Below are positions 1 to 63,471 of a DNA stretch of 64,000 nt, piece by piece. Under the pieces are notes generated by a model. It made no database searches, had not been told where the DNA came from, and worked only from the letters and a program-made list of their open reading frames with translations. Source of the DNA: Coprinellus micaceus. Lineage: Eukaryota > Basidiomycota > Agaricomycetes > Agaricales > Psathyrellaceae. The stretch lies in the NCBI GenBank assembly GCA_951394405.1, contig OX596338.1:4340001-4404000 (forward strand), given 5' to 3'. Each line of letters opens with the position of its first letter. Position 1 is the stretch's first letter. The translations under genes and the position numbers were made by a program.

Positions 1-1462
1 GGATCCTGCCAAAATAGCTTCTGAGATATCGCGAAGATCATCCTTGCGTTCAAAGCGATGGTAGAGGAGGATCGAAAGGATGTTTAGTGTGCCAGAGAGG
101 CGGATATGCCCCTCTGGCATCAGCTGCACAGCTTGGGAACTTAGGGAGATGGCCATATCAACGTCTTGGAGGTCCCGTGTGCATTCGAATCGACCCGCAT
201 ATGAAGCACTAAGGGTGTCGAGCAGTATTGGTAGCTCGGCGTCACCCTCAGGCATCAGCCGAACTGCCTTGGACTGCAGTGAGATAGCCTCCGCCAAGTC
301 TTCCAGAGCCCCCGTGTGTTTAAAGCGATATCGAAGTGATTTTCCAAGGTTTGCGAGGACGAAAGGTTGACGTGGATCCACCTCTGGAGTGAGGCCAACC
401 GCTTTAGACTGCAGTGAGATTACTTCTGCTATGTCTTGGAGAGCATTTGTGCATAGATAGCGATGCAGACAGAAGCCCCCAAGGAGGCTAAGCGTGGAGG
501 GTAAGTTCGCATCGCCCTCGGGGATAAGTTTCACAGCTTGTGACAGGATTGATATCGCTTCGGCCAGGTTTTTGGGCTCGTCTCCGTGCTTGAGGAGATC
601 CAGAAGGGAGCTCCCAAGGTTATGGAGAGTGCCGGGTAGTCGGGCACCTCCCACGGGTGTGAGGCGTAGAGCCATCCTTTGCGCCGAGATGGCCTGAGCC
701 AGATCTTGGGTGTCACCGAAAGTATTAAACCTTTCACGCAAGAGTTGTCCAAGGTCGTCGTTCAGCTTTGCACACAGGCTCCCACTGCTCTCCGGAGCTA
801 AGTCAAGAGCTGTCTGGAGTGTTGCAATCGCATCGGAGATGTCCATGAATTCATGGGAATTCTGAAACCTGTCGTGTGAGCTGCTTGAGCGTTCTACCAG
901 CGCCTTAATAGCTTCATGGCGCATAAGAAGGTAGTCCTTGAATACACTGTCTTGTTGCATGAGAATCACAGTTGGACACACCTTGCACATCCGCCTGCAT
1001 CGCCGTTGGGACTCTCCTCCACGAAATGAGATATTGGAGTGAAGCCTTCTGGGGGTGAAGGATTTCAAATGATCTACTGAAATCTGCCAACTCCCTTTAG
1101 CGTCACTCTGGCTTATGAGGTGAGATCCTTACCCTGGTCTACTGACATACCCTCGGCGTGTTCCAGATCATCGAGGAGGACAAAACCAATCGTCTCATCT
1201 CCCTCTAACAGGAAGCAGTCCAGTTCGCCTACTCCTAGGGGTCTTTGTCCCAGTGAGACACGATTTGAGAATTGCAGGAACGAACTCACAGCTGAGCAGC
1301 ACCCCAGACCTTCCATTCGTGCACCGATACTTGAGACAGATCCAGCAATTGCCCGCTCTCCGTGGATCCCCTTCGAAAGATTCCTAGTGCCGTCGGCTTT
1401 ATGCACCCTTCAACATTGTCACCGCCCTCGAGGAGTTCGATCGTGATATCTAACGGGGATAT
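1..1462 (-). CDS. CHAT-0: 5' part of a TPR-CHAT gene, cut by the window start
   Basis: This is the 5' portion of a TPR-CHAT gene running off the left edge. The main exon (about 946 down to 1) encodes the first six TPR-like repeats in a frame with no stop that I could find, and short upstream exons follow the same plan as CHAT-1 (offset exactly 16897 bases). The sequence matches 16898-18359 with only scattered substitutions, for example one changing a repeat glycine to valine near 369. The repeats carry the family core (roughly AISLQSKAVHLTPEGD) spaced about 45 residues apart. The CHAT domain would lie outside the window, so catalytic integrity cannot be judged. The upstream exon that reads DITIELLEGGD in CHAT-1 is also present here. 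Confidence 0.8.
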
Positions 1463-4110
1463 AAGTCAAGTCCGGACCCATAAAAACCGTGCATACCAGT
1501 CAGATAGCTACGAACGACGTCAACATGAGCCCTCAGTTTCACATTAGCTACAACTGAATTTCGTACCTTCCCACTCCTTCGCCAAAAGCAGGCCCGGAGG
1601 CACTCCCAACTACAACAACGTACTGTCGAACGTACTGTTGTACGTCCATGTTTGATATTTCGAATGAGGTGGCCTCAAGATAGGCCGTTGAAAGGCAGAG
1701 GAAAGATCGATGCTGTGGAGAGAGGGTCGCGCGAATATATAGATGGAGGAGCCTCTGCTGCGGTAGCCGGCGCTTGTTGGGGAGTGAGCGCACTCCAAGC
1801 CATAGCCCCAGCAGAAATGGTCACCGCACAGCACTGGTGTGCGGCCTGTGTGGAAAGAAGCTGATAAGCGCCCATTTCGCTCTTGTGCAGTTAGCCACGT
1901 CTGCATTCCGTCGTCACATAGCCTGGTGCAGTGGGTCGAGGTGTTGTCCTCGGGAAATTTATCTTCAACGTTCTCCTGGTTCGTTACTCAATACGCCCTA
2001 GAAGACTGCGGAAAGCAAGGAGTCTGGCACGACGCCGGAGGAGGCTGTAGTGGCAAACTCGCGTTCGACGAGCCGAGCGATACCGAGCTACATTTCGGAG
2101 AGGTGCGATCACCGAGGATGTATGCTCTTCCAGAACAGCGCCGGCTCGCAGTGCAGTACACACCACTCTTGGTGTACTCGCGCGCTCATTATAATTCACT
2201 CGCTAGCCGAGACGGCGAAGGTGAGATACCTAACCCCAGTGGAGTTAACAGTCTACAGTTCACGTTCCCGATTTCATAGTTTACACCTTATAAGCTGTAG
2301 ACGCTGTACATCTCGCAGAGCTATGTATTCGCCCTCCGTTCGTTGCGATCATTTGACATGTAATGGAGGAGTGCAAATTCGAGTTGATACTACCTCCCAA
2401 TGGTAGCTTGGCTGTCAATGTTGTGCAGGGAGTTAGTTCCCTCGTTCCTTATTCAGAGATGCTCGGAATGTCGCTGTTCGCCCTCGTGTTTCAGCGCCTA
2501 ATTTGTATTCAACTCCCCAAAAAGAACGGGACCAGCAAACAAACGAGTAAAGTAGGAGGAGCCGAGCCGAGCCGAGCCGAACCGAGGACCCGAGGACAAA
2601 CCGAGTGAAGGCGAACGTGCCTCCCGATGCACTGCGTAGAGGCAAGTATTTGAGGTGGAAGGCAGAAAGTGGGTGGGGACAACCTCACTGAGAGTTCAGC
2701 GAAGTGCCGGCCAGTCAGAGTGGTTCCGGATTTGTTGCAGTCGAGTGGCGGTGGGTACGGTACGAAGGATCTACCTCGAAGTAATCTCTCGAGATCGTCG
2801 TTCGGATTCGAGTTTCGGTGGTAATGGAAACTTAGTTCGCAGACCGAGATTAGATCTCTCATAACCATACTCCACGGAATAGCGGCGGTGGGGACGTGAT
2901 ACTGACTGGCCTCGTCGCCCTGAGCTTCGGACGGTTAGGCACATCGGACATTCCTATTCGTCTCTAGGGCCTCTGCACTTCGGACCTTGAGGAGGTCTTA
3001 TCGATACGATCGAGTCGGAACTCGAAACTCGGAATTGGGAATTAGGGATCCCCCGATCATAGCAGAAGCTTCTAGCAGAGCGAAGAGACCGCCAGGTATG
3101 CATGCAGGCACGGTCTGTACCTCCAGTGGAGTGAGAACACAGCCCCTTCCAAGTCTGGAGTCGAAATGAAGTCTCGAGAATAGGTTCCCGGGGCGTCAAT
3201 TCAAACGATGAGTGAATTTATCGACGTTGAAGTCGTCGAGGGTACCATCCATAGGTCAGGTCAAACGAGGTCTGAGTGGTGTGGAGATTATTGTGACCGG
3301 GATATGACAGGAGTAGAACCTAGAGCACGGAATCTACCGCGAGTGCAGGTGAAATTTTCTGAGAGGATGCAGTACGGGGCTGGTGGGTCTCTCGAAGGGG
3401 TATCGACGAACGTTTACGAGACTTGGAAGTGAGGACTAGTAGCGAGGCGGCGAGTTGAGAAGTCGAAAGTCAGTGCGAGACATCGGGAAAGGGGTGTATG
3501 AAGTCTAAGGATGGGACAAAGAGCGGCTGTAAAAGCCTCTAAGGGGGACGGGGCTATTCTTGTTGAGGGCGCGAATGAAAGAAGGGCGAGGGGAAGGCGG
3601 ACGTTGGGTAGTCACTGACAAGGGCAAGCAGAACTAAAGTAGGGTGATCTGAGGTAGGTCGAGAGGAACAACAGTACTCACAAGAAACCGACCCCCTCAG
3701 AAACTCCAGAGCGTTCGAGGATTGAACAACATCGCAATCATCGCGGTTGGAAGCAAGCTGAGGCCGCGCTTCTTTCCAGTTCGAACGCCGACTCGGGAGG
3801 GAGCGCTTCCCCACGGGCCGATGTCAGGGGCGTCCGACCGAGATCTTGTCCCCTCAAGGCTCAAATCATCCTCCCTTGTCAATGACATCGCCATTGCCTT
3901 TCGTTCCGACGCTGTGCCACTGTCAGGGCGTTTAGGCGCCCAGGTCACCCAATATCAGTATAGATTAGATTAGATTATCGTGGGTACCTGATGTAGACGC
4001 CAGCGCTATCGGAGTCAATAACGATCCTTGCCCTCAACGCTATACCGAGGCGCTCAATGACTAGTTCACCAGCCTCACCGGCGAGCCCGCCCGAGTAGGT
4101 CCACACTGGG
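1463..4110. repeat. Divergent intergenic segment between CHAT-0 and QTRT2-Z (copy 1 of a repeated unit)
   Basis: No gene supported. The segment is homologous to 18360-20960, 30205-33000 and, inverted, to roughly 38200-39500, 47760-50640 and 60700-61900. Similarity to 18360-20960 is very high near the CHAT side and falls, with small indels, toward the QTRT2 side. It contains an imperfect version of a conserved palindrome (1826-1842), a TATA-like stretch around 1735-1745 for the leftward CHAT gene, and a short GAGCC pentamer run at about 2563-2585. Small open frames here are not conserved between copies and are treated as chance. Confidence 0.75.
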
Positions 4111-5480
4111 CTACTCCAACACAATCCAAATTGTCCTTGACACGAGTTGCCTTTCGTTCACTCCCTCGTCTTCTTGTTCTGCCCAAACGTAGAAGACGTC
4201 TGGCTCTCGGCTTGGAAGACTCATCCTCGAGCGCTCAGTACATATCTCGGATGGAGAGGGAGGAAAAGATGCGACGATATCGAAGAGAGTTGAATTCGTC
4301 GCACCCGCACTATCCACCTCGGCCTCGTGCATATTAGCAGAGACCGCTACGAGAGGCTTGGGGAAGGGTTGAGGCAGATGAAGTTTGTGAGTCGTCTCCC
4401 TTCCTTATCACCCTCTCCCTCTCCCTTTCCGCCTCCCGCGTCTCGCGTTCTGTCTTGCGAGCCCGGTCGACCCGTTGACGCCCAGCCCCTTGGCATCTCC
4501 GTCGTTTGAGCACGTAGCTAACCTTCTCCCCCTCCATTCACAGCCTCGGACACAACCCCGCAGCTCCTTTCCGCGACGCGTCATCCTCTGGGACGTGCTC
4601 CTCCGCTTCTCCTTCCTCCTTTCTCCCTTCACCCCCACTCCAAACATTCCTCGGCTTCAAACTCCAAGGCACCATCCCCACAGTCGCCTCACGCAAACCT
4701 GGCGATACGCGGAAGATGCCCACGAGGGGGAACGATGCGCTCTACGTGAGGTCGTTGAGAGGTGTGCTGAGCGTAAGTATTCCACTCCTTCACTTCACTT
4801 TACCCGCCACCCTTTGTCCATTCTTACCTTCGTTTCCTTCGGATATCCCTTCACCTCGCTCTTTTGAACCGATGATTTCCAGTCATTTCCTGTAGTCGGC
4901 CCATGCTTTCCTTTCGTTCTATTGGACCGCTTTCGCAGCGCTGTTCTCAAACTTCCTGCCCCAATCTCTCCTTCTCATCCCACTGCTTCCCGAGTCGCTT
5001 TCACCGTTCCTTCCTGCGCCATATTCCTTCGTAGAACTAGCACCCTCCTCATTTCGTCTCATTCTTCTGTGCATTCCCTTGTTTATCTTCTTTTCTTTTC
5101 TTTCCGTTCATTTACTCCATAGCGTCCCTTCTCCCAACGAAACAGAAATGCTTACTCTACTCCCCTCCAGATCTCCCCAAAGGACTACTCCTCGTATACC
5201 CAATCAATTCGACCAGACGTCGTCACGGCCCCGTCCGACATGCCATCCGCCAACCCCCCGTACTCCCAATACGTCTCACGAAGAGTATCGAGAGATCCTC
5301 CCTCTGGCTCGCCTCCCTCCTGGCTGGAAGTTCCGATCAATGTCTTTTGCTTCCAACCTCGTCTTCATCGCCTCCCTGCTTCCTGCTCAACTGCTCTTGC
5401 CCTCTTTGCGCTCGGCCTCTACATCCTAAAGCTCACCGAGCCGCCCGCTCGGGGGCCCAGAGAACCGAAATCGAGCTGAC
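4111..5480 (+). pseudogene. QTRT2: QTRT2-Z: truncated QTRT2-like pseudogene (exons 1-3 only)
   Basis: Remnant of the queuine tRNA-ribosyltransferase accessory-subunit-like gene. Exon 1 (about 4130-4386) has the ISRDRYERLGE motif but is frameshifted against the RLGRL-type N-terminus; a GTGAGT donor follows at 4387. Exon 2 (about 4544-4772) keeps FLGFKLQGTI and GNDALYV and ends at GTAAGT. Exon 3 (about 5171-5478) begins ISPKDYSSYTQSIRPDVV, then loses frame after NPPYSQ. Exon 4 with the zinc site is absent. Intron 2 is swollen to about 400 nt of pyrimidine-rich sequence, compared with about 65 nt in QTRT2-A. Clearly non-functional. Confidence 0.8.
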
Positions 5481-5779: not shown

Positions 5780-6754
5780 GGCTATCGTTCGGGAATAAGA
5801 TATCCCAAACGTCCTCGACGTCTCTCTCCTGGTTGGATCCATCCGCAAATTCTTTCAAAACAGCCTGTCCCACTCGAGGTCAGCTCATGGCATCAAGCGT
5901 TTATGCAGAAAACTCACGTTCAGCAACGCAGCACACCCTTCGTGCTCTACCTCGCCTTTCAAGGATCGCACACCCTTCACCACATCCTGGTACTCCTCGC
6001 CCTCGTCAACTAGAATCCGAGCATATGTCTCCGCTCCAAGCATCGCGAACATGATCAACGGGGACACTGCGAAGATCTCCCTCGGAATACTGTGATGAAT
6101 TGGGAGCATTGCGGTGGCTGGCGGCGTGACACCACTGAGCTGAAGCCCCAACCGCGCGAGTGAGACGTGGGGATGCTGGAACCCTTTGGGGAGAGTGGGG
6201 AAACCGAGTTTGATAGAGATGGCGGCGAAGAATGCGGGGGGTACGTTGCATTTCGTCGGACTGGGGCCTATGTCCGGAGAAGTGTAAGTGTGCAGGTCTT
6301 CAAGTTTCTTGTAGAACGCCCGAGTGAACGCCTCAGGGAACGTTGCGGTGGGAGTGCGTTCCCCTAAGTCCCATCTCGGGTCCACTGGGAGAGAAAGGGT
6401 TTTGAGTTCATCCATTTCGCATGCGCCCTTGATCCGAACAAGAACCTCTTCAATCTGGTCTGGCGCCAGTGTCCCAAACGCAATCGTGGATCCTGCCAAC
6501 GAATTCGCTATGTCGCTGGTGGGTGACTCCTTGAGGAGCAGTGCTGCGAGGTCCTCAGGGGTAAAGTGTGGGTCGCTTGAAGGTTTGGTGGGGTTCTCGA
6601 AGAGAGTGAAGAAGGTGCGGCTCCAGAGGAGGCCGAGCCTCTCAAGACTGTTTTCACCAGGAGCAGGTGGGGTAACTTGCTCGGGCATGCCGTATTTCCG
6701 GGTTCGGTATGTTTGGGACTCAAAGTCGACCTGGGTAGCCACCGTTATATTCAT
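5780..6754 (-). CDS. Unknown fungal protein, about 290 residues or more, spliced 3' end
   Basis: I do not recognise the family. The open frame runs from 6979 down to 5885; the likelier start is the ATG at 6754 because the upstream 75 residues are low in conservation-like features. The protein is soluble in appearance, with no signal peptide or clear membrane segment, and rich in Pro, Thr and Leu. A GTGAGT donor lies in frame after the residues CAALLN (about 5908), so the stop at 5885 is probably intronic. A candidate last exon near 5835-5782 could end with DVWDILFPNDSL, but its phase does not fit cleanly. Unlike its surroundings it is single copy in the window, sitting in the island between QTRT2-Z and QTRT2-A. 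Confidence 0.5.
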
Positions 6755-7080
6755 AAATCGGAGGATGAGATCCCTCGTATTTGTCAGAAGGACATGTGGA
6801 GACGGTGCGGGTGTGTACACACGTATACGGCAATAGAAGGTCAGGGACCTTCGAAAGGCGGTGGTGGAGGGTGAATTCGTACACTCGGTGTTCACCGGCG
6901 CCCACAGAGCACTGCCTGATGGACAAACAGTGTTCAAAGGAAACTGCCTCAGGACCCGCCATGCCGTATCTACCCCCATCGGGAATAATGTATTCTTGTT
7001 GTGGCAGGGAGAGCCATCGCAAACATAGATAAAGCATAGAGACTGAACGCTAGATGTGGTTCTCTACCTCCCGGTGGTGC

Positions 7081-10187: not shown

Positions 10188-13108
10188 ATGTCAACGAGCG
10201 CTCTCTCATTCGCGCTCTCGCCCTCCTCTTCTACCCCTACGGATACTCCGACCCACAGGACGAAGTTTGGTCCAAGGCTTGGACGACTCGTCCTCGAGCG
10301 CTCGGCTCCTTCGACTTCGATTGGTTCCGATTCAACAGCTTCAAGCGGACAGGCAGGATGTGAAGGACGGCTGAATTCGCGGGTTGAGCTCGACACCCCC
10401 GCCCTATTCACAACCACGTCGCGTGGGGCTGTACCGCACATCAGTAGAGATCATTACGAGAGGCTTGGAGCAGTGTTGAAGTGGACGTCTGTGCCTTTTG
10501 AGACTTTGTGAGTCGTGCTTTTTTTCAATCTTCATCCGCCCAGGAGTTACTGACTATAAGGATTGATAGTCTTGAACATAACCCCCCAGTTCCCGTGCTC
10601 TACGCGTCCCATTATACCTCCAATGCTTCATCTCCCACTCCTTCCAAACCACTCCATGGGTTCCTAGGATTCAAGCCAGAAAACACGATCCTCGCCGTAA
10701 CAGCACGCGACCCAAGCGACACGCGGGAGATGCCGACGAATGGAAACGACGCGCTGTGTGTGTGGACCTTGAGAGGTGTGAGGAGGGTACGTATCTTCCC
10801 TTCATCCCTCATCTCTACCACACCAGTCCTAACCCTGACGCCTTGACCTACCTCTCACCCAAAGACCATGCATCATATACGAACTCTATCCGACCGGATG
10901 TCGTCACAGCCCTCTCCGATACACCCTTCACGAACCCCCCTTACTCACAAAAACGCCTGACGAAGAGTATCGAGAGATCCTCCCTCTGGTTGGCGTCGCT
11001 TCTCTCCGGATCCACACCCTCGAGCCCTGGCTCGGCTCCAACCAAATCCCCGTTCGCCGTCCTAGCCCACCTAGCCGGCCTTACGTCCATCCCCGCTCGG
11101 AAAGCCTTCGCTTCTTCCCTCCTAGAGCCTCTAGACACCTCGCCCAGTTCGCCTGGGACGAGTACGTACGTGTCGGGTATGCCAGGCATCGCGAATGTTC
11201 CCCTTCCGTCGACGCTCAAGAGCCTCGATGACGGGGTGGCTGGATATACGGTTGACCTCGCACCCTTGATTCAGAATCTGGATATCCAGGCGGCCAAGGA
11301 TACGCCACTGGCCCTGGGGAAGGTGAACACGAGTTCGACGATAGAGGAAATTGTGCCGTTGCTGGAGGCCAGTCTGGGTGATCTGACGGAGGGGAAGCCG
11401 AGGGTCGTGAATGGGGTCCAGGGTCCGCATGATATCCTTAGGTGAGTACTTTTCACGCTTGAAACTCTCTACAATTTTGCGCCGTTTCTTTCTTGGTACT
11501 CCTTCGTATCCCTTCCTTATCGTGGATTCCCGTTCGTTCATTTCTTCGCTAGTTTGTGTTTGGTCTTCATGCTCCGTTTGTCCGTTTGTCCTACGACGTC
11601 TTTTATTGCCCAAGGCTTCCTTCATGCCTTCCAGTCCATCGACGGTACGGATGCTCGAGGTCGTTGGGATGGGTGCCATCCATCCGTAAGCCAGTGAATT
11701 GGGGTCTCCCTTCGTTCGGTTACAGCCCTTTTCTTTCAAGGCTTCATGGTCTAATGCGACACATACTCATCAATGGGCGTCATTCGATTCACTGTATTAT
11801 CTATTGTTCCTCTTCGGGAACGAATGTGGGGTGGTTATTTGGGTCGCCGCTCGGCGACCCTACTCCCTCCTCGCGTATATCTTATGATAACCCTCCAGGA
11901 GAAATCCTATTCGTTTTCACCATTCCTCTTGTTCTGCTTTCCCCTCCTGCGTGAAGCTATGTTCACGCCACACTCTTCCTCATCGTCTTTCCGTTCGTTT
12001 TGAATAACCGACCCATTCGCGTTTCGCCGTTCGGCCTCGGGGAGGTCGGGCAGGTTAGGCCGTCGCCTTTGGTGTTCTGACTTTCACTTCGCCACGCCGA
12101 CCCCTTGCGTTTCGTGCTTCACCATTCCACCACGGTGCTTCATCGTGCATTTGGAGGGCCTCTCTCCCCAGGACCTCCGCTGCGTTCCTCCCTCTTCTAC
12201 TTCACCCTTTCTTGCCTCGTTTCTGACATTTATTCATATCCTTTTGTTCGCCGTTCGTCGTCGGCTTCATTCCCTTCGTTCTTTCGATCCACACCTTCGT
12301 GTCTCTTCCCGCGTCCCCCTACGTGTAAAGCGACGAACAGCTGACGCACTCCCTGGTTCACAGATTGATCAGCGAGATCGGTATGGACCTCTTCGATGCC
12401 GGATGGGCTCAACGCTGCGCCGACGTCGGCGTGGCGCTGGATTTCGTGTTCCCTGCCCCTCTTGGTACCTCGGGCTCGTCAGCACCGCCTTCAGTCGTAG
12501 GAGAGGTTGGTCCTTCGGCACCGGTCTCGACAGCACCCGAAGTAACGGAGAAGGGGAAGACACAGCTCGGAAGGAACATCTACGATCCGAAGTATGCGTA
12601 CGATTTCTCTACGCTCGGAGACGATTCGTGTGTGTGTAACGCGTGTCGACCCGTGCAGCCGCCTACGAGGCTGTACCATGGTGTCGATGCGCCCTCGTTC
12701 TCCGGGGAATCTGGGTACCCCGGTGAGCTTGCCAGCGAGGGTGAAAGTGGTGTGAAGGAGGAGTACGGGGAGCCGTTTACGAGGGCGTACGTGCACCATT
12801 TATTGCACACGCACGAGATGAGCGCGCATACGCTGTTGGTTATGCACAACGTGGGCGTTGTCGAGCGGTTCTTCGAGAGTATTCGGACGTTCCTGTCCTC
12901 GAGCTCTAGCGATGAGAAGGTCCCCCACGGACGCTTCACAGGGGAGATCGCCCGCTTCGCAGAGACGTACGACGAGGCGTTCACGATCCTGCACCAAGCG
13001 AGGAAGGAGTGGAAAGAGGTGGATATGGCGCGGGGCAAGGGAAGGATGGCGAGGGAGAAGGAGAGGGAGGATGCAGCGAGGGCGCATGAGGTGGGGGTGG
13101 ATCCTTAG
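10188..13108 (+). CDS. QTRT2: QTRT2-A: queuine tRNA-ribosyltransferase accessory subunit 2-like, four exons
   Basis: QTRT2 is the non-catalytic partner of QTRT1 in the eukaryotic enzyme that swaps guanine for queuine at wobble position 34 of certain tRNAs. Exons: 10188-10507, 10570-10786, about 10852-11441, 12364-13108, giving about 620 residues (the animal protein is about 415). Family marks in order: FGPRLGRL; LDTPALF..PHISRDHYERLG; SIERSSLWLASLL; GYTVDLAPL; KPRVVNGVQGPHDILR across intron 3; DLFDAGWAQRCADVGVALDF; and the zinc ligands CVCNAC plus the His of VMHN. About 47 extra residues separate the cysteines from TRAYVHHLLHTHEM. The extra length also comes from a Ser/Thr/Pro-rich N-terminus. 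All exons are open, but the expected acceptor of intron 2 reads TAC instead of TAG, so expression as intact protein is uncertain. It converges on CHAT-1. Confidence 0.8.
11442..12363 (+). other. Long pyrimidine-rich intron 3 of QTRT2-A (922 nt)
   Basis: The donor GTGAGT at 11442 splits an Arg codon, which is completed by the A after the acceptor CACAG at 12363, joining HDIL-R-LISEIG in frame. The interior is dominated by C and T on the coding strand, with recurring TTCGTT and TTCGCC motifs and no conserved open frame. The same intron at the same codon, similarly long and biased, is present in copies B, C, D and E. Confidence 0.8.
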
Positions 13109-13880
13109 GAGAGACGCACGACGTCTTCATGTCATATTCGTGATGAGACGCAGTGGTGCAGTGGAGGGACGTGGACGGCGCGAAGGGGAAGGAGACGGAA
13201 GGCTGGCGATGAGGAAGGTGAGGGGGGATATGGCGAGGCGGGGTGGGGTTAGTGTTGGTTTGTAATCGAAGGTGGAGAATGGGTGTCTGGGATGCAAGGA
13301 GGTGAAGGAAGAGGGGACGGGAGGAACATAAAACTGATCATGAGCATTTATGGATCGCCAAAATACCGCCAAATCGATTTCCCATTAGAACCTAGTCTCT
13401 CGGTCAGTCGTCGACCTTCTCCGGGACCCGGGCGCGCGAGCACGAAGCCACTAAATCGGTATTTGGTGCTGCTTCACACAGCCGATTCAGAGTGTTGTCG
13501 GTACTTGGTAGGATTCACGCGTTCGGGGAGCCAATGCGTCATTAGAACGAGAGTGCGAGGCATATCGACCGGGGGGGATATGTACTAGTGCGACGGGCTA
13601 TTGGTAGGTAATAGTAGTAGGCGAGCGCGTGTTCTGAAGAGCGAAACGGGGAAGTATAGCGAACATTCGCAGAAGTACAGAGAGTCTGTCTGCCGGGCGA
13701 TGCGAGATACAGTATATATACAAATGGAAACGGATATCAGAGCACTCAAGTGGACGGAGTAGAGGCCATAGAAAGGGAATGCCAAATAGGTTGAAATAAC
13801 GAGTTTCAAACAATACGATCAAGGCTGAACAGGTACGAGAGATCCAGAGGGAAAGAGTGGGGAAATAGACAGTCTGGGTA
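13109..13880. other. Convergent intergenic region QTRT2-A / CHAT-1
   Basis: Shared 3' flank of two convergent genes; no gene seen. It is homologous to 24469-25105 and, inverted, to 55196-56000: the block around 13370-13400 (GATTTCCCATTAGAACC) recurs as TGGACTTTCATTAGAACC near 24505-24522. The bases just after QTRT2-A are purine-rich. Confidence 0.6.
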
Positions 13881-33100: not shown

Positions 33101-33139
33101 TCGGCGCCTCCTCTCCCAATTACCCTCTCTCCTTCCTCC

Positions 33140-42719: not shown

Positions 42720-42885
42720 CTCGCGCTTGTGTAGGAGATGGTGCACATAGGCTCTCGTAAACGGCTCCCGCACTCCTCCTTCACACCATTCCCACTCCCA
42801 CCCTCCCGGATAAGCTCAGCAAGGTACCCAGGCTTTCCGGAGAACAACAGTGTGCCGACCCAATAATACAGTCGGCTGGGAGGCT

Positions 42886-43322: not shown

Positions 43323-43619
43323 AGTCGACACGCGTTACCCCATACACGATGTGTCTCCTAGTGGGAAGAAATCGTACACGTATTCCGGATCGCAGATGAT
43401 CCTCCCGAGCTGTTTCTTCTCCATTAGCGTAGTCGAGGTCGAGGAGTGGACAGGAGAGGTCAACGAAGAGCAAGGGGGAAGACGATTCATGGGTCCAGCG
43501 CCACGCCGACGTCCGCGCAGCGTTGGGCCTACCCTGCGTCGAAGAGGCCAATTCCGACTCCATTGGTCGGTCTATGATGCGGGAAAGAACATCAGTGAGT
43601 AAGTCGAGGTGACTCAATG

Positions 43620-44780
43620 AGGGATAGAGAAGAGGGAGACGGGTAGACGGGTAGTCGGGTAGACAGGTAGACTGTTAATAATAGTGTGAAGTGGTGAGGA
43701 ATGGAGTTTCAAGGCGAACGGGGAAATGATCAATGAAATTCACGAGGGTGATACAGTGTCCCACGGTGTGCTCGGACAGTTAAGAGCAATTACCTCATTG
43801 TACGGCTTTGGTGAGGCTTCGGAATGAGATTGGGGTACCATTGTGTAGGCAAACTTCTTGTGTACACACGCTTTCCAACAGCACGATTTTAGGATAGGAA
43901 CTCCTCGAGCTATGAATTTATTTTGATGAAGAGGTCGGATTTCGGCTTGTCCGGCGCCTCACTGGGTTTTCGGACACCGCCAAATTGGCAGGGCCAAACA
44001 GTGTCAAACGTAGGCTCAGAGCCTTTCCCGAATGCCGACAAAGGTATTGACTGCCCTAAAATGCACATTATGGCAACTTGGCTGATACAAAATGTACATT
44101 GAGTGTTTGTCAATGGTATCCAGGAGTATTTACACCCCCAAGTGCGTGCTTACATGAATTATGCTTTCAATACCCTTCCCTCGTGATTCTGCGCAATTTC
44201 GGCGAGAATGCTCTCTCGGACTCCAGGAAAAAATCAAGAAATTCTGTATGTCTATAAAACTAATTCCAAGGGTCCTCGAATGCCATTCCAACTTGCTCTA
44301 TGCCCTTGGGATCCATGGTGGACCTGTCAGTGTCTCAGCATTCTCTCCTGTTTCCACAGAAAGAGGATTTTGACCTGGTTGATTGTGCGAGCCACAGAAT
44401 ACCATCCTACAGTCTTTTTGGGGGGTAAGACTGCATTTATATACTCAATGCACCATAAAGTCTTGGTGGGTACCACCAGCGAAGGGCCTGTCTTCGATTT
44501 ACGAAGCAGAGGGTTAGCCTTCCGGATTCGGACAGCCTGCTAAGTAAGGAAAAGGCGCCGTGATGGCACAGGGGCGCACATTTCGACGGATTCGAAAGCA
44601 ACTGGGCATTCCTACATGTTATTTTGGGTGTCTATGGCGAGCGACAAGTCTCTACTTTACGTTCATGCAAAAACATTGGGCGGGAGAGGTCATTTATGAC
44701 CTCAAAATGTCGTTTGTCCGAAAGCTAGGTATGTCCGAGAACCCCGTGATGCACTGTAATAGTGATGTGGGGTGAATCGG
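43620..44780. other. Unrelated AT-richer segment between exon 4 and intron of QTRT2-D
   Basis: It lacks the strand bias of the intron copies and has no match that I recognise elsewhere in the window. Open frames up to 111 codons on + (44208-44543) show no recognisable domain. It contains the short inverted repeat GGTCATTTATGACC at about 44688-44701. Probably inserted DNA; identity unknown. Confidence 0.35.
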
Positions 44781-50640: not shown

Positions 50641-50857
50641 AAGATCGAACATGGAAGCACAGCGGTACGTTCTTGCAGTCCAGAGTCCCTCTCATCGGGC
50701 TGAATGAGTAATTAGGCACGCCTCCGACGCTGGGAATGGCAGAGGAGGCAATAGGTACGCGGCTCATACGTAGCTACAAACGGTCTGAGACTCATTCAGA
50801 CGTCGTGATCAGTGTTATGAGAGGTATTCGCTCCCCTTTTGTGCCCGGACTTCACTT

Positions 50858-53800
50858 ATGCCCGTACTAGATATCGCGATCAAACTGCTCGAGAGCGGTG
50901 ACAAAGCTGAGGGGTGCATCAAGCCGACGGCAATACGTATCATGGGAAGGGGGTCCGCGGAGAGTGGGATATTGGTGGATCTATCGCAAGTATCACAGCG
51001 CGAATGGAATATCGAGGGTGCTGTTCACCTGTGAGTTCACACTTTTGATTCTCGAGTGTTTGCTCACTAGGCCAAAGTCCCCAAGGAGTCGGCAAATTGG
51101 ACTGCTTCCTGTTGTCAGAGGGATATGAGCCAATTGGTTTTGTCCCGATCGACGATCTGGAACAGGCCAAGGGTATAGGGAAAGGTAAGGCTCTCACCTC
51201 ATCATCCAGAGTGACACTGAAGGTTGGGTTGGCAGATTTCAGCAAACAGATTCAAATCTTCAACAACCAGTCCCAATTTCTCATTTCATGGAAGATAATT
51301 TCGACGGCATTTCGAGCGAATGTGGAAGGTATGTACAAACACGACTCCCATGCAACAAAAGCAGTGTATTCAAGGACTACCTTCTCATGCGCTATGAAGC
51401 CATCGCGGCACTAGTTGGACACTCATGCAGCTCGCACGACAGATTTCAGACGTCCCGTGCATTCGTGGACATCTCTGATGCGATCGCAACACTCCGGGAA
51501 GCGGCTGGCATGATATCAGAGGGCATGGGGGACTTGTCTGCAAAGCTGGATGAAGTTATTGCAACATACTTGGGCGAACGGTTTGAGACTTTCGGTGACA
51601 CCCAAGATCTGGCTCAGGCCATCTCAGCGCGAAGGACGGTTCTGCATCTCACACCTGTGGGAGACGCACAACTACCCATCCTCGACAATCTTGGGAGAGA
51701 CCTCATTCGCCTTGTTGGGTACGAAAGGAGTCCCGAAAACCTGGCCGAAGCGATATCGATTGGGTTACAAGCTGTACAACTTACCCCCGAGGGCGATGAG
51801 AACTTACCCTCCAGGCTCAGCATCCTTGGGGGGGCGTTCATGCATCGCTTTAAACGCACAAATGATCTTCAAGACCTAGCAGAATCGATCTCACTGCACT
51901 CGAGAGCGGTTCACCTCTGTCCAGAGGGGGATCCTTCTATCCTTGCAAACCTTGGAAACTTATTTCAGGACCGCTTTGAACGCACGGCAGTTCTGCAACA
52001 CTTGGTGGAGGCCATCTCACTGCAGTCCAAAGCAATTCGCCTGACACCAGAGGGTGACGCCGACCTGCCAACGATGCTCAATGACCTTGGTGAATCATAT
52101 ATGAGGCGATTTGAACACACAGGGGACCTCCAAGATGCTGAGATGGGGATCTCCCTAAATTCCCAAGCCGTGCGCCTGATCCACGAGGGACGTGGGGTTG
52201 TACCCCACATACTGGATGATCTTGGGAGTGCCTTCAGCAGTTGCTCTGAATACGCAGGAGGTCTCCACAACATCTCAGAAGCAATGTCGGTGGAATCTCA
52301 TGTTGCTCAATTCACTCCGAAGGGGCATACAGATCTACCGTCCCAGCTCAACAATCTTGGAAGTTCGTACCTACGTCGCTTCGAGCGCACAGGTGAACTT
52401 CAGGATGTGTCACAGTCGGTCTCACTGCACTCTCAAGCCATACAACTCACCCCAGAAGGACATCCAGCCCTGCCTTACTTCCTGATGAACCTTGGTATCT
52501 CATTTGAGCATCGTTTTGAACGCACTGGTGATCTTCAAGATATCTCAAAGTCAATATTACTGCAGTCTCGGGCGGTTCACCTGGCTCCAGAGGGCGATGA
52601 AGAGCTACCCTCCATGCTCAACAACCTTGGGGCCTCGTTTCTGGGTCGTTTTGAGCGCACGGGTGATCTCCAAGACGTGGCAGAGGCTATCTCACTGCAT
52701 TCCAAGGCAATTCACCTGACTCCAGCAGGGCATTCAGGCCTACCTCATACTCTCATGAACCTTGGAAATGCGCTGATGTGTCGCTTTGAACGCACGGGAG
52801 ATCTCCAAGACATAGCGAAGGCTATATCCGTGCAGTCGGAGGCGGTTCACTTGATTCCGGACGGCGCCGCAGATCGACCCTCCATGCTCAGCAACCTTGG
52901 CGTCTTGCTCCGAGTCAACCGTCGCTTTGATCAGACAGGCCATCTTCGTGATGTCTCAGAAGCAATATCATTGCAGTCCCAGGGTGTTCAACTGACTCCA
53001 AAGGGGGATGCAGGTCTACCCAAGCGGCTCAACAATCTTGCAACATCGTTCCTGTGTCGCTCTCTGAGTGTCAATGACTCTCAAGAGGCCCCTAATGGGA
53101 TCCCATTCGACCCTCGAGCTGTGCAGGTCATTCCTGAAGGTGACGCAAGTCAACCGAACATCCTCAACAGCCTCAGAAATGTGTTGTTGTGCCCCCTCAA
53201 GCACGAAGGTGGGGGTAAGGACATCACCGAAGCAATCTCTGCGCAGACCCAAGCCGTACGCCTCACTCCTGAAGGGCATGCAGAGCTACCCCCAATGCTC
53301 ACAAACCTCGGAATCTGTTGGTACCAGCTTTTCAGATTATGTGGGCTACCGCAGCATCTTCGTAACAGCATGTCTTCCTACCGATGGGCGGCAACTTGCA
53401 ACTTCGGTTCTCCACACACCAGGCTTCAGGCCGCTGCTTTGTGGGCGAAACAGCTTTCGGATCTACATCGAACACACACGGTGGAACTGGTCTTCGCGTG
53501 GGAGACCGCAGTCCGTCTGCTTGCACTAATCGCAGGTCTCGAGGAGACTGTGCAGCGGAGGCATGCCATTATTCAGGAGTTTACAACCATACCCCTTCGT
53601 GCAGCCTCTGCCGCATTCCTGGTTAGGCGGCCGGGAAAAGCGTTGGAGTGGCTGGAGCAGGGCCGTTGCCTGGTTTGGGGTCAACAGGCCCAACTGCGGA
53701 CGCCACTCGACAAGCTACGTGCCCAAGATGCCGCCCTTGCGGATAGGGTTGTGGGTGTCTCAAGGCGACTGGAGAATGCCGGGTCCTCTTCACGAACCCG

Positions 53801-55195
53801 GACTCTCGAAATAAACATGTCAGAGAAGATTTCTCTAGAGGATGAGGCACAGAACCATTTGCGTCTGGCAAGAGAATGGGAAGATCTCCTCAAGGAGGCC
53901 AGGTCCATCCCTGGTTTTGAGAACTTCCTGCAGCCCTCACCTGTCGCTTCTCTTCTTCAGCGTCTACCGACGTCGGGACACGTCGTGGTCATAAATGTCA
54001 GTGATGGTCGGTGCGATGCGATTGCTCTTCACGCAGCCTCAGACGGACCTCTCCACATCCCTCTGCACAATTTCTCTCTTGAGAAGGCCAGAGCCTATCG
54101 GAATGCGCTCAAAATTCAGTGCGCCCACCATAACCGCCTGGCTCGAGGGAACGATGCGACAATTGATGGCGAGGTCAACTTCGGGTCTGGTAGGGCAGTG
54201 AAGCGATATCGGATGGGGGGAGTGGAGGGGGAAGGACAAGTTCATATGGTTCTGAGGTGCCTCTGGAATGAGGTAGTGAAGCCAATTTTACAGGATCTTG
54301 GACTACTGGTATGTGAACTGCTTTTTACTCTCAACGTGTCAGCTCAACGCCGGTGTTGCAGCGGCCAGATCTGTCCTCAGCGGACCCACTTCCTCGAGTT
54401 TGGTGGTGTCCCACAGGTCCACTGTCCTTTCTCCCAATCCACGCAGCTGGAAATTATCGGAACTCTGAAGCTGCGAGTGCCATGGACCATGTGGTGTCGT
54501 CGTATACCCCAACCGTCACTGCCCTTACCAAACGAGTCTCCAATAACCACAAAATCGACCATACGACCGCCGGCATCCTTTTCACTTGTCAACCAGAACC
54601 ACCCCGCCAGCCTCGCATTCTTGGCACGATAAAGGAGGTTAACTCCACCCATGGACAAGCGATGCAGCACGGCTTTAGAACGGTCAAGCTCGAGGGAGAC
54701 GATGTCTCCGCCGCCGATTTTCCTGTCCACATGGAGAAGTTCAGTTGCGTACACCTAGCGTGTCATGGAATCCAAGACGCCTCTGAGCCCCTCAAGAGTT
54801 CCTTCGTCTTTCACAAAGGCAGGCTCGATCTCAACACCATCATGCAGTGCGACCTCAAGAACGCCGACCTCGCATTCCTGTCAGCGTGCCAGACAGGAAC
54901 AGGTGAAGACACCCTCTCAGACGAGGCTGTCCATCTCGCTGCAGGGATGCTTGCGGCTGGGTATCGTCGCGTCGTCGCTACCATGTGGGGAATAAAGGAT
55001 AATTACGCACCTAAGGTCGCTGATGACTTCTACGACTATCTATGGACCCACAGCAATGAAGACGGGGCACCTCAATTCGACGGGTCCCTATCCGCATACG
55101 CACTTCACCACTCTATTAAGCAGCTTCGAGAAAGCCTCGGAAATGCAGACACATCGCTTCTCTCCTGGATCCCGTATGTCCACTTCGGTTATTGA
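50858..55195 (+). CDS. CHAT-3: TPR-repeat CHAT-domain protein, best-resolved copy
   Basis: About 1,385 residues. Exons: 50858-51030 (MPVLDIAIKLLESGDK), 51078-51184 (GVGKLDCFLLSEGYEPIGFV), 51236-about 51332 (DFSKQIQIFNNQSQFLISWK), about 51365-54308 (repeats), 54362-55195 (CHAT). Introns of 47, 51 and 53 nt have consistent phases; the third (about 32-36 nt) is unusually short and its edges are unsure. The first three exons form a globular module that I cannot name with confidence (a C2-like fold is possible). About 15 TPR-like repeats follow (FERTGDLQDVAEAISLHSK type), then EWLEQGRCLVWGQ, and a CHAT domain with the catalytic His in HLACHGIQ and Cys in FLSACQTGTGED. A further upstream ATG at 50651, conserved in all four copies near the TATA-like box, may be the true start through tiny extra exons. 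QTRT2-E converges on it. Confidence 0.85.
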
Positions 55196-55990: not shown

Positions 55991-58940
55991 CCCTTCTAAG
56001 GGTTCACCCCCACCTCATGCGGCCTCGCCGCATCCTCCCACTCTTTCTCTCTTGCCGGGCTTCCCTTCCCCCTCGCCGTATCCACCTCCTTCTACTCCTT
56101 CCTCGCCTGTGCAGGATCGTGAACGTGTCGTACACATCTGCGAAGCGGGCGATTTCCACACTGAAGCGGGTACGGGGGATGTCCGGGCTCGAGGTAAGGG
56201 CAGCAGTGTTGGACGACAACGCGAGGAACATCCAAATACCCTCGAAGAACCGTTCCACAGCGCCTAAGTTGTGGGTAACCGACAGCGTATGGGCGCTCAT
56301 CTCGTGCGTATGCAACAGAGTGCGTACGTACCCCCTAGTAAACGGCTCCTCGTGCTCCTCCGTCGCGCCACCCCCAACTGCACACTCGCTGGTAAGCTCT
56401 GCGGGGTATCCAGGTTCCTCAGAGCGACGGGGTATCGACACGGTGACACAGCCTTTTAGGCGGGCGGACTGGTTGACACGCGTTACCGCACACCGATCGC
56501 CTCCAAGTGAGGAGGGAGCCTACGCATATGTCAGATTGTAGACGTTCCTTTCCAGCCCTTTCTTGTCCGTTACCGTGACCGCGCTCGAGGAGTCGAGGAA
56601 AGGGGTCAATTAAGAGGAGTCGACAGGAGAGGTTAATGAACAGGAAGGGGGTCGTGGAGCGGGGAAGACGAAGTCCGGCACCACGCCGACATCTGCCCAT
56701 CCTTGAGCCCATCCGGCGTCGGGGAGTTCAATCCCGACTTCGCTCAACAACCTATGCAGAGCGAGGGCTGACGTACGGTTCGGGCTTGAACCAGAGGAAG
56801 AGAAAGGAGAAGGGACAGAAGGAATGGAGGGATATTATAAAGAATAAACAGGGAATAAATAAATGCATCCCAGAACGAGTTTCTCAACCCCAAATCCGTG
56901 AAACAAGACAGAGCGACGAAGCCCGAAACATGTACCAAGAATCGGTATCAAGCAAAAAATGAAACCCCTACCCTCGAAGCCCAATGCGACCAATAGAAGA
57001 TGAATGAAGAGATAAAGCTAACCCAGCCAAGTGCATGTTGAATGTAGGGGTTGAGAAGGGCGATGAATGAATGTACAAGGGGATAACAACGACGAGGAAG
57101 AACGCCGAAGACGTGGGGAGGAAGGGTAACGTAAGCCTCGAAGGCGGAAGTCGGGAAAGATATGAAGTGAAACAGAACAGAAGGAACGATACGAAGTCGA
57201 GACCAGGGAGAGAAAACGAACCGAAAGAAGTGGTCGAACCACCAGTTCAGAAACGCATGAAGGGAACAGAAACGAACGCACGGGAAACTACCGACCGGAA
57301 AGGCCAGAAACCAACAGCCGGAACACAAATGAATTACGCCGAAATGAAACCGCAATGAAGGCTCAAAACGAACGGGGACTAGGGTGAGCGAAAGAAAGGC
57401 CGAAAAACGAACGAACACGACTTTGGGGAGCGAAACGAACGAACAAACCGGGACGAACGGGAGGGAAACTCGGGAGCAAAGTGAGAGAAACAAAGGGCGT
57501 GAAGCGAAGAAACGACGTTGAAGGAACAGAGTAAGACGAGGAGATCGAGTTCAAACACGACACAAAATAGACGTACCCCCACATCATGCGTCCCATGCAC
57601 ACCATTCACCACCCTCAGCTTCGACTCCTTCAGCCTGAGGACACACAGACTCGCCTCCACCAACGACCCCATCTCCCTACCCTACTCCATCCCGCCTCTC
57701 CATGCCTCCCCGCCTCGGCCGAACCTGATTCCGCCGCCTGGACGTCCAGATTCTGCGCCACCTTCTCAGCTCTAATCTCCATATTCCGCACGATCCCCGC
57801 CAAATCGACCGTATACCCATCCACACCCTCATCCAAGTTCGTCAACCTTCCAATCCCTCCCTGGCGCGACCACGATCACGACTCCTGCTGCCCCCAGCAT
57901 ACCGCTCGTAGTAAGTATGTAGACACACCCGTGTTAGGGGTAAGCACTGGGCGAGGTGTCGAGGGGCAAGGGAGAATCCTCGACGAGCGGGGTCGAGGCT
58001 AGAGGTTGGACCCGCAAGACGCGTGAAAATGGCGAAGGGAGTGAGTGGAGACGCCGGTATCAACGAGGCGGTAGCCAGTGAAGTAGACCTTGACACACGC
58101 GACGCCAAACACTGGCAGGAGGAGGATCGCTCAATACTCTTCGGCACCCGATTTAATGAGTACGGGCGTTCCGAAATAGGGCGTTGGAAAGTGCAGCTAC
58201 GACGTCGGGGACGTGTACGTCGAACCGTCCTTCCGTGAAACCTACAGGCGGTCGAGGTCAGCATTGACAGAACAAGGGGAGAGATGGAAGGACGCACCCT
58301 CCGCAGGCCTCAACGTTCCGACACATAGCGCGTCCCCATTCGTCTGCCCCTCCCGGGTCTCTTACGGTAGCTTTGAGTACGGCGTCTCTTTTACGAAGCC
58401 ACGGAGCGGAGGCGATTCAGATGGAGGGGAGGGAGCAGAACTGAACGTGTAGAGCACGCAAACTGAGGGGCTGCGTCCCAGGCTGTCAAGAGAGCTGTGG
58501 TCAGTACGTGCTCGAACGGCTGAAAGGGAACGGCGCAGGGCCGCGAGACGTCCCCCCTCCCCCGAGCTCGACAGAGCAAAAGAGGTATTTATCAATGGGG
58601 TAGGAAGTACATAGGGATAGGAAATGCGTCCGAGGACGATGACGGTAGGAGTTGGGGGGAGGATGCCAGAACCAACGTGGAAGGATGAATGAAGACGACG
58701 ACTCACAAACTCTCGAAGGGCACGCACTTGTACGGTAGCGCCTCCCCAAGCCTCTCGTAGCGTTCCCAGCTGATACATGGGAGGACACTGCGGGACACGG
58801 GTATGAATGGGGTTCAATCCGCCTCGAAGAGGCACTACACTCGCTGCTTGAAGTGGTGACCCTGGGTTCTCTGTCACGAGGGGCCCAAGTCGAAGTCAAA
58901 GTCGAGAAGTCACAGTCGAAGTTGAGAGGTCGCGGTCGAA
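55991..58940 (-). pseudogene. QTRT2: QTRT2-E: full-length but broken QTRT2-like pseudogene
   Basis: Minus strand. Exon 1 (about 58940-58707) includes CISWERYERLGEALPY and ends at GTGAGTCG, with an internal stop. Exon 2 is eroded (about 58500-58320, VCVLYTFSSAPSP). Exon 3 (about 58250-57570) keeps RVPKSIERSSS, PFAIFTRLAGPTSS, LDEGVDGYTVDLAGIVRNMEI and LRVVNGVHGTHD in different frames. Intron 3 (about 57560-56760) is pyrimidine-rich on the minus strand. Exon 4 starts LSEVGIELPDAGWAQGWADVGV and loses frame; the CxCxxC motif is destroyed, but a later open part keeps TRGYVRTLLHTHEMSAHTL and THNLGAVERFFEGI. Confidence 0.75.
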
Positions 58941-59539
58941 GTCGAAGGTATCAAGTACTCGAGGACGAATCGGCCAGCCCTCGGGCTAAACTTGGTGTTT
59001 CCTCCTTCTCATCATTTTAGGCAGGAGATGGTGAAGAATAAGGACCTCGTCGATATCACGATCGCTCGTCGTACGCTGGATACAGGTAAGTAGAATTAGG
59101 GGGAACGCGTTCTGGGTATGTAGGGGGGGTCCCCGAGCGAGTGGCCTGGACTCTGGCGGGCCTGAGGAGAACCCATCGACGAAGATGAGACGGTGATAGA
59201 TCCGTTTTTGTGGAATGGCGGGATGGCGGGGGCCTTTTGACGGTGTGGCGAGGAAGAGCCCGAGTTTGGTCGTTAACCGCGACCAGCTAAGCAACCAGCC
59301 CCCTTCCCTTCGATTTCCCGAGGGGGTACCGGAGAGGAAGGTGCAAGCCCGGAGAACGTAGAACGGCGGACGACCGGAGAGGGCGGCTATCGGGCCTGAT
59401 GGAGTTCGGGTGTGTGACGAGGAGGGTTTTGGTGGGACCTAAATCGAGAGCAGAGTGTCAGGGTTGTGGTCATGGAAAGTGGGGGAGCGGAGAAGGGAAG
59501 GGGTAGAACGCACCCTCCGTATTTCTGAAAGTCATTGAA

Positions 59540-60600: not shown

Positions 60601-63471
60601 TTTCGTTCACTTGCCAGCTTCGAGGTAGGCTCCCTTCTCGTCCACGATGAGGAAGCAAGGAGACGAGGCTTGAAGGTGGATGGAGGAGAGCAACAATGAC
60701 GATGATGCCGGCCGCGGCATCTGTGCCTGAACGCCGTGGTTAGGGTTTCCCGTCCGCTTTTGGAGAACGGCGCGACGGCGTGAGAACAAGATGCAAGCGC
60801 TGATGCGCTCCGCGCAGATCGGAGAACGAAGCCCGTGTATCTCTTTTCCTTCTCACCGCGTTGGTCCTCGAGTCCTGAGTGGCTCTGGTGATACTGCGTA
60901 AGGGACTAATCATGGATGGGGAGGTAGATATCCTTGAGTTTAGGGTGAGTTCCACCGGGCGTTCCCGCCATGCCCTCTCTGCGCAACCACCTTCCACTTC
61001 GATCTACCCGCCTCCCCAATGGATCACTTCTTCATCCCAGAGTCGCTGTGTGCTGGATTCCCCTCCTTCATTCCGATTCCTTCTTCCCTCTGCCGTCTGT
61101 TACATTCCCTGATACCTGCTCGCCCGGTCCCCTACGCACATCCTTTAATTCCTCCCCGCCCTTAGATTCGCCTTTTACCTCCCCTCCCCTACTATTCCTT
61201 TCACTTCATCCATCTACTCCAAGCCATACTTCTTCCCCATTGAGCTGAACGCAACCGACTCCCCCTGCGACTTCCTTTGCACTGCCGCACTCGCGGTAGA
61301 TAGTGCTCGACTTCGGGCGCCGGGAAGTGTTCCGTCTGACTCGCTCAGGCCTTGCTTCCATCACCCTCGGGCCTGCCTACCCTCAGAATCTCAATTCACC
61401 TACTCCACCAGGTCCTCAGATGCTCCGATGTACCGGCTAGATCAGATACGTATGCACAACCTCAGCGCTCAGCTCCTTCACTCGACGTCGGGGACCACGT
61501 TGTCCTTAGCCATCCTCCTCAAAGCGTAGTGTCCACTCTTGAGATATGGGACCTACTTCTCCTCTTCTACGAACGGCGCACACAATTGCTAACTCCCTCG
61601 CTCTCTCCGAGGTCTTCCTAACTCCCTTCAAGGCTACCTCCCATCCTTCGCTCGCTTACGCTTACTTTGACGCTATTCCTATCATCTGCCCGCTTCGGCT
61701 TATCTCGGTGGCGTCTCCCTAATCCTCTACTCGCTTCCACTCACTCAGTCGTTGAACTCTCTACGAGGGACAACGTCCGAACACGAAGTGAACTCGTAGC
61801 CCCACGAACCTGAGGGAACGCGGGCGACGTACATTAAATACGCACAGAACCTTCAAGGGACTCGCACGTGTAGAGCCTTCCAAGCACTTCGACGTTCCAT
61901 ACACACCGACGCTCGGGGACTTGGAGATTCCAATCTCTCCCAGCGACCTATACACGCGTTTATCCACAGACGATGGATCAACGTACTACGCGGGTGGTGT
62001 ACGGCTGAAACTTGACACTTGACGTTGACTTCCCTTCAGCCGCCTAGGACGTCATCGACACTCCCGCTGCACTCGCGGTAGAAGTTTGTAGTGTTCGACT
62101 TCGACCGTGTTTGTCGGAAAAACCCGACCCCCAGGTCCAACGGCAGTGCCGTTGGACGCTGTTGACATGCCGGTGGACCACGGCCAATGCCGTTTCACCC
62201 CGGTTGGACCTCCCGTTGATCCCTAGCCCGACTGGGTGTTGGACAGGTGTTGGACACAGCAACAGTTATAGGAACATTATAAATGCGAGATGTAATATTT
62301 GGAGTGGCTCCGGATTATTTATCCACGAAACGAAACGACCACCTGACCCCTGCCGAATGGGAGACATCGTTCCGTCACGCCCCCTTCCTGGTCGGGATAT
62401 GGTAGAATGTATTCTCCGCCCTCCCGTCCCGTGCTCGAAGCATACACGGCGGGCTCGACTTACCCTCGCACTCGATCAAATCCGACTTATCAAAAAAAGA
62501 CGAAGAAGAAGAGAGAAAAAAAACCCCGCGTTCCGAGGCGAGGTACCCATCTCGCGCCGGGGTGCGTGACTCGGTAACATTCATCTATTGTGTCCTTCTC
62601 CCGCTCTCCCTGCTTCTAATGTTGTTCCTTTTGTTCTTCCCGTTTCGTTACTTCATATGATCGGTGTTGCGTCGGCTTGCTGCTTCCGGAGCCTAGTGGG
62701 TAGATCTGACAAGGATCCGATGGACAGCACGCCAAGTCAAATGTCCATGGTTTTGAGCTGGGAGCTGGGTATACCTCGTACTAATTCGTCGTCAGAATTT
62801 TGGCTGATCTGTGATATACTCTCACTGGGGCTGCGATTTCTGATATTCTTTATTTCTGACGTAGTGCAGTTCGGCCTGACAATCACGCTGGGCGCTTAAA
62901 GCTGTGGTCATTTGTCACACAGGAAGCGGGAGCCCCATATGGAAAGATGTATTAGGCGCCGAAGATAATCACGCGGCCCATTATTTGAGCGGATCGGGAG
63001 GCTTTGATTCGAAGCTCAGATCCTGTTAGAAGTCCTGACTCCTAACTCAATCCTTACTCAGGAAGCCATACTACAATGATATGCGGTCAGTCTATCTGCG
63101 CCTCGAACGCTGTTCACACCTCATCCGAGAGTCGTAGAAGTTCACAACTTTTATTCCGCATCGCGCCCATGTTGCACTCATGGAGCGAAGATCAAGATCA
63201 TACGTATGATTGTCAGAAGATAGGCCCCTAGGATGAGCCTCTTGTCTCGAGAGATCAGTATCAGAGGTCGAGGTCGAGGAGACAGGGACATCAGATCCTG
63301 GGTTGGTTCTGGGAGCCTGATTGGAAGGTCGAACTCGGCGCCAGGGTGGGGACCCCCAAAGGAAGCACTGTACATATTAGGCTTAATGTGCCCTCACGAA
63401 TTCGTATAAGTGAGTGCAAGTGGGGTCCGAACTTGGAGAAGCCCCACTTCCATTTCCTCCTCATAGTCTCA
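60601..63471. other. Non-coding stretch, partly inverted intergenic repeat
   Basis: The first part (to about 61900) resembles the intergenic units in inverted orientation but is strongly decayed, and no CHAT gene follows. From about 62000 to 63470 I see no coding region that I can support. It contains a short perfect palindrome (62135-62157) and purine-rich low-complexity sequence near 62490-62525. Confidence 0.45.
62135..62157. repeat. 23-bp near-perfect palindrome
   Basis: Eleven bases (GTCCAACGGCA) are mirrored around a single central base, followed by related GGTGGACC, CAATGCCG and GTTGGACC words up to about 62260. No other copy was seen in the window. Confidence 0.5.

Follow-up and report, generated by a model that had tools for sequence, protein, structure and literature searches.

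Why would a tRNA-modification gene multiply side by side with a family of immune-type genes on a fungal chromosome? A 64,000-nucleotide stretch of the Coprinellus micaceus genome (hereafter the window; G000:C5:4340001-4404000) raises this question, as it carries repeated copies of genes encoding tetratricopeptide repeats (TPR) and a CHAT domain, interspersed with copies of a gene resembling QTRT2. The genome comprises 50.3 Mb in 17 contigs; the end of C5 carries a TTAGGG array, and the window lies 194-258 kb from that telomere. The initial annotation counted four TPR-CHAT genes in the window, along with eight QTRT2-like copies or remnants, and Pfam and tblastn searches recovered the same numbers. 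The count of eight takes two small pieces separately, one a further exon-1 fragment at 33.2 kb, the other 78 bases long at 37.9 kb. We consider it likely that the locus is a lineage-specific segmental-duplication array near the telomere, in which QTRT2 is mostly a passenger beside CHAT genes that are kept.

A CHAT-QTRT2 unit is repeated over about 170 kb

The array exceeds the window in both directions. Beyond the window it was read on 267.5 kb of joined DNA (C5:4330001-4597515), and the QTRT2 pieces were located by tblastn with copy A, which lies just left of the window, as the query. The array spans C5:4.332-4.50 Mb, about 170 kb, and contains six closely related TPR-CHAT genes (U0-U5) together with about a dozen QTRT2 pieces. 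The repeating DNA unit is the one initially described, in which a CHAT and a QTRT2 gene are divergent at their 5' ends across a spacer and convergent at their 3' ends. The divergent-side gaps measure 2.9-4.2 kb at U0, U1, U2, U3 and U5. The convergent gaps are 779 (B-U1), 803 (C-U2) and 807 bp (F-U3) in the window and 749 bp (G-U4) outside it. Between A and U0 the convergent gap is 1940 bp, which relative to copy B includes an insertion of about 1.15 kb (L037:5335-6480). By eye, this insertion has short inverted end repeats and is transposon-like; no second copy of it was found on the chromosome arm.

The units are homologous far beyond chance, including their spacer DNA. When the window was compared with itself by blastn, positions 1-4775 aligned with 16898-21641 at 86.6% identity, spacers included, and 13550-16687 aligned in inverted orientation with 55513-52374 at 77% identity. 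In the spacer that separates U0 from the following QTRT2 fragment (1203-4079), one block is 93% identical to 18100-19300 and another is 82% identical to 19500-20900. The spacer from U1 to copy C (18100-20900) and the inverted spacer from copy E to U3 (48206-51113, minus strand) are also homologous to other array spacers, and a further inverted spacer copy (38564-39415, minus strand) has no adjoining CHAT gene. The first 1.2 kb of the U1-C spacer matched the array only (6/6 matches, C5:4.341-4.417 Mb). Both signatures of segmental duplication, homology of non-coding spacers and similar spacing between units, were found in the array, with the pattern incomplete at U4-U6.

Within the window, QTRT2 lies on the plus strand to the left of 36 kb and on the minus strand to its right, as the tblastn coordinates confirm, and the local switch falls between 35.1 and 37.9 kb. 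The initial annotation took this for a partial inverted duplication, which holds as a local view but not for the array as a whole, whose orientation flips several times. In order, A, B1, B, C and D are on the plus strand; the 37.9 kb fragment, E and F on the minus strand; G and H on the plus; I and I2 on the minus; and J on the plus, so that outside the window the orientation is plus at 4.409 Mb, minus at 4.453-4.462 Mb and plus at 4.500 Mb.

An assembly that had placed haplotypes or collapsed repeats in tandem could produce a similar picture, and three 250-base bins are indeed 100% identical between U0 and U1. However, most of the pieces aligned by blastn differ by 13-37% and have distinct insertions and truncations. 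In addition, the contig reaches the telomere repeat in a genome of only 17 contigs. We therefore regard an assembly artefact as extremely unlikely.

QTRT2 was found only in the array, CHAT genes across the genome

The genome-wide protein and family searches scored best candidates only, so the counts are lower bounds and a very diverged copy could escape. In three protein searches, QTRT2 matches were confined to C5:4.332-4.501 Mb (14/14, 20/20 and 19/19 of the best candidates, the last with an Agrocybe orthologue as query). A search with the family PF01702 gave eight matches, four on C5 and four on C3, and those on C3 belong to one separate TGT gene that we read as the catalytic subunit QTRT1. 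Among the best candidates for these three proteins and this family, no QTRT2 was found outside the array.

The CHAT family search gave 66 matches and the search with the U1 exon 69, the latter merging under a 2 kb rule into 67 loci on 11 contigs. About 60 loci lie outside the array and have no nearby QTRT2 match. CHAT occurs without QTRT2 on ten other contigs, seven of which carry 4-10 loci each; in a CHAT cluster on C12, for example, a 9.5 kb stretch (L038) contains two CHAT genes in tandem but lacks QTRT2. CHAT has multiplied with or without QTRT2, and QTRT2 has multiplied in this array only. These two distributions suggest that QTRT2 was carried along by duplication of its neighbourhood, and they favour the earlier suggestion that the co-amplification may be structural.

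Our literature searches found no paper linking queuine tRNA-ribosyltransferase with the CHAT domain in fungi, and nothing on CHAT gene families in agarics, subtelomeric fungal CHAT genes or basidiomycete QTRT2. For queuosine in Basidiomycota, the matches were unrelated as far as their titles and the opening of their abstracts indicate, and for TPR/CHAT expansion in basidiomycetes the only paper found was PMC10197012.

The CHAT genes are intact, constrained and mosaic

The TPR-CHAT identity of the genes agrees with the family matches. U1 scored 105.5 bits against PF12770 (CHAT; cut-off 24), U0, U2 and U3 also exceeded the cut-off, and TPR_10 was above its cut-off in the open frames of U1, U2 and U3. 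U0 is represented in the window by its 5' part, from the TPR region (1-1128, minus strand), because the gene runs past the left edge; the U0 CHAT exon lies outside, at C5:4336987-4337985. U1 occupies 13881-18025 on the minus strand (TPR open frame 14723-18025, CHAT exon 13881-14882), U2 occupies 25106-29081 on the same strand (TPR open frame 25833-29081, CHAT exon 25106-25939), and U3 lies at 51189-55195 on the plus strand (TPR open frame 51189-54632, CHAT exon frame 54317-55195). Codon-position counts hint at 5' exons of U1 up to about 19.1 kb, without settling them. Pfam matches in the three long TPR frames were to TPR families only, with neither NACHT nor NB-ARC among them; these frames do not extend into the tentative 5' exons.

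All eight CHAT genes on the chromosome arm (8/8) have His and Cys motifs, which we take to be the catalytic pair. The array TPR-CHAT proteins are probably caspase-like proteases with a role related to cell death. The gasdermin family PF04598 had no match in the genome, but the same search matched no control genome, so its absence is not established. U0-U5 are the six best matches to the U1 CHAT exon (68-100% identity, U1 included; 4.337-4.461 Mb), and two remoter CHAT genes, U6 and U7, which are 48-50% identical to that exon, lie at 4.509-4.514 Mb. The top database match to the CHAT exon was from Ephemerocybe angulata (62%); for CHAT and QTRT2 alike, agaricomycetes supplied the best matches among named database proteins.

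Next to this conservation of the protease part, the two halves of the genes differ in their rates. The ratio of nonsynonymous to synonymous substitution rates (dN/dS) among U0-U5 is 0.09-0.20 in the CHAT exon and 0.32-0.52 in the TPR part, for which the U5 alignment covers 869 codons only. By these ratios, the CHAT exon is strongly constrained and the TPR part diverges faster. In U0-U5, no stop interrupts the long TPR frames across the aligned stretch, except at the alignment ends in U0 and U2. The genes are also mosaic: the identity of U0 to U1 is 91-100% in the first 3.25 kb of their alignment and 84-91% beyond, and its identity to U2 is 49-82% earlier and 97% in the last 500 bases. Since U0 resembles first U1 and then U2, exchange between units is required.

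Two QTRT2 copies are open and most others are broken

Copy A (C5:4331763-4335047) has four exons and an open frame of 598 amino acids. Copy B (10188-13108, plus strand; tblastn match 10188-13105) likewise has four exons (10188-10507, 10570-10786, 10852-11441 and 12364-13108), and, like A, contains no stop, its frame being open over the 596 codons aligned to A. These are the only QTRT2 copies with full open frames. In copy B, PF01702, the TGT domain family (cut-off 26.3), matched the frame 10582-11445 with 32.2 bits and the frame 12329-13108 with 49.6 bits. Compared with 38 PDB sequences, copy A had four best matches that were all accessory subunit 2. Its ten best database matches were 42-48% identical (Agrocybe chaxingu at the top, 47%), and both copies can be aligned with agaricomycete QTRT2 throughout. 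Twelve agaricomycete orthologues share 111 invariant columns; A keeps 106 of these and B 105, among them Cys-x-Cys-x-x-Cys...His, presumably the metal site. From its sequence, the array gene is predicted to encode QTRT2, the non-catalytic subunit of queuine tRNA-ribosyltransferase, as the initial annotation proposed. Its intron 3 is long for a fungus, 0.9-1.4 kb (11442-12363 in the window; L037:2994-4359), and pyrimidine-rich by eye.

Over the 596 codons, A and B differ with a dS of 0.56, a dN of 0.105 and a dN/dS of 0.19. Such a low ratio at this dS points to long shared constraint after the split, so that both copies appear to have been constrained for most of the time since. A pure pseudogene reading of copy B was rejected on these values and on its open frame. 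Relative rates of the two copies are mixed: B departs more when compared with P0001 (20 to 9), P0012 (18 to 12) or a 4-of-5 consensus (8 to 2), and A departs more when compared with P0003 (16 to 11). The intron-2 acceptor of copy B is AC, in contrast to AG in A, C and D; seven frame-keeping GT-AG pairs lie near this intron (e.g. 10791-10864), and copy B may or may not function today.

Of the 11 other QTRT2 pieces scored, nine carry stops (1-8 each); the remaining two are short, at 52 and 123 codons. Fragment B1 (4136-5334, plus strand) contains parts of exons 1-3 only, without the 3' part, and one stop in 229 codons aligned to A. Copy C (20970-24306, plus strand) has one stop in 563 aligned codons, and its exon 1 shifts between two frames (20886-21224 and 20882-21574). 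Copy D (33245-35133, plus strand) also lacks the 3' part; it consists of exons 1-3 (33671-35133) and the extra exon-1 fragment (33245-33418), with two stops in 352 codons. The exon-1 fragment of 78 bases (37876-37953) is the first piece on the minus strand, followed on that strand by the degraded copies E (42693-47673; eight stops in 468 codons) and F (55999-58993; seven stops in 529 codons, with frame changes). Beyond the window, the aligned codons and stops are 337 and 2 for G, 118 and 2 for H, 52 and 0 for H2, 123 and 0 for I, 98 and 2 for I2, and 399 and 4 for J. Between broken copies, dN/dS reaches 0.63 (D-F, F-G).

In a tree of 11 array rows and five orthologues, the array forms one clade with a support of 100. 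QTRT2 divergence grows telomere-ward from the inner edge of the array (C5:4331763-4501744). Terminal branch length correlates with position (Spearman 0.87 with A and 0.83 without), although the rows were projected on copy A, which may favour its short branch, and several pieces are short; for the 11 pieces compared with A, the correlation with position is 0.74 for pS and 0.62 for pN. This gradient would be expected if the outer copies are the older ones, or if sequence changes faster close to the telomere.

Could QTRT2 have been the selected gene and CHAT its passenger? Duplication of QTRT2 for dosage or subfunction in queuosine modification of tRNA would be in keeping with the long-kept function of copy B. 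However, most QTRT2 copies decayed and the CHAT copies did not, and the ten contigs where CHAT multiplied without QTRT2 speak against such a role; we consider this explanation unlikely.

Another possibility is that both genes were amplified because both are needed, QTRT2 being the partner or the monitored target of the adjoining TPR-CHAT protease, much like the pore-forming gasdermin of fungal clusters that pair it with a protease gene. A QTRT2 piece is present within 2 kb of 6/6 array CHAT genes, A and B are both under purifying selection, and CHAT genes can adjoin their target gene in fungi and bacteria, as described in parts of PMC10197012 and PMC12881547. Yet the intact CHAT genes of U2-U5 stand beside broken or partial QTRT2, which disfavours a guard-guardee or protease-substrate pair; moreover, the roughly 60 CHAT loci outside the array have no QTRT2 match nearby, and shared duplication of the unit explains the adjacency without selection. 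A functional pair is in our view quite improbable. Still less probable would be a true two-gene unit in which a CHAT receptor guards or cleaves QTRT2, with the degraded copies as members that have dropped out of a rapidly evolving recognition array. We read the locus as structural co-amplification with exchange between units, and not as an obligate functional pair.

A model for the array

Our model suggests that the array was founded where a QTRT2 gene was located beside one member of the large TPR-CHAT family. Ectopic recombination between units would then have copied the CHAT-spacer-QTRT2 block repeatedly, sometimes inverted, and would also have moved sequence between units. Selection would keep the CHAT copies, with their TPR parts diverging faster, and most QTRT2 copies would decay after copying; copy A, which resembles the founder, would have escaped this decay, as would copy B during most of its history.

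Several observations weigh against this model. The unit is incomplete at U4, where the nearest QTRT2 on the 5' side is about 25 kb away; the convergent QTRT2 of U5, 944 bp away, is part of exon 3 only; and piece J lies 6.8 kb from U6. A CHAT exon outside the array, on C13, matches U1 at 71% identity over residues 61-333 and is no more distant from it than some members of the array. Nodes within the array clade of the QTRT2 tree are weak (23-81). Some of the counted stops may fall in intron sequence read through by BLAST, exon 4 of copy C looks constrained (dN/dS 0.23), and the broken copies compared with A give dN/dS of 0.20-0.41 (H2 not computable), which is not near 1. Since the constrained copy A accounts for half of each such path, and conserved parts are over-represented in BLAST segments, the main evidence for decay is the stops, frame changes and truncations. 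Finally, long purifying selection on copy B is unexpected for a pure passenger, and it implies that QTRT2 was not always a neutral one.

If the model is correct, a conserved tRNA-modification gene was drawn into the expansion of an immune-type family and became multi-copy by position alone. The array would then offer a natural series of passenger copies at successive stages of decay beside intact protease genes. Its mosaic CHAT genes document how the sensor part (TPR) and the effector part (CHAT) have undergone exchange. The array also calls for caution, as genes that are amplified together in this way do not have to work together.

Other features of the window

Just upstream of copy C, a dispersed repeat of about 160 bp (20742-20900) accounts for 34/41 of the spacer-query matches, on many contigs. 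Six short frames from the spacers and four from elsewhere in the window had no Pfam match. By eye, frames at 39828-42189 (minus strand) and 63232-63876 (plus strand) resemble a multi-exon membrane protein and share a 539-base alignment at 69% identity; the pieces of them that were scanned had no Pfam match. An open frame of 392 amino acids at 5885-7063 (minus strand) is also without a Pfam match. Nowhere in the window was there an Rfam match at the gathering score or a tRNA.

Comparison with known systems

Segmental-duplication arrays of immune-type genes contain tandem and inverted units, exchange between copies and hitchhiking passenger pseudogenes. The present array resembles them in its units, exchange and passengers, and differs in that no QTRT2 other than its passenger was found in the genome. 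Among fungal systems, parts of PMC12881547 describe a TPR-bearing CHAT protease that activates a gasdermin in P. anserina. As far as parts of PMC10197012 and PMC12881547 describe them, the fungal TPR-CHAT proteases and CHAT/S8-gasdermin clusters share with the array the combination of TPR and a CHAT domain with His/Cys, a conserved protease part next to a faster TPR part, and a large clustered family. In contrast to the two-gene clusters of CHAT and gasdermin, the neighbour of CHAT in the array is QTRT2. With QTRT2, the accessory subunit of eukaryotic tRNA-guanine transglycosylase (e.g. PDB 7nq4, 7b2i, 6fv5), copies A and B have in common their alignment to the agaricomycete proteins and the Cys/Cys/Cys/His pattern. 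Unlike the usual QTRT2, the gene is present here in about a dozen copies and fragments and has the long third intron described above; among 120 QTRT2 matches listed, most species appeared once, and Athelia sp. TMB and Pisolithus marmoratus appeared twice (haplotypes or paralogues).

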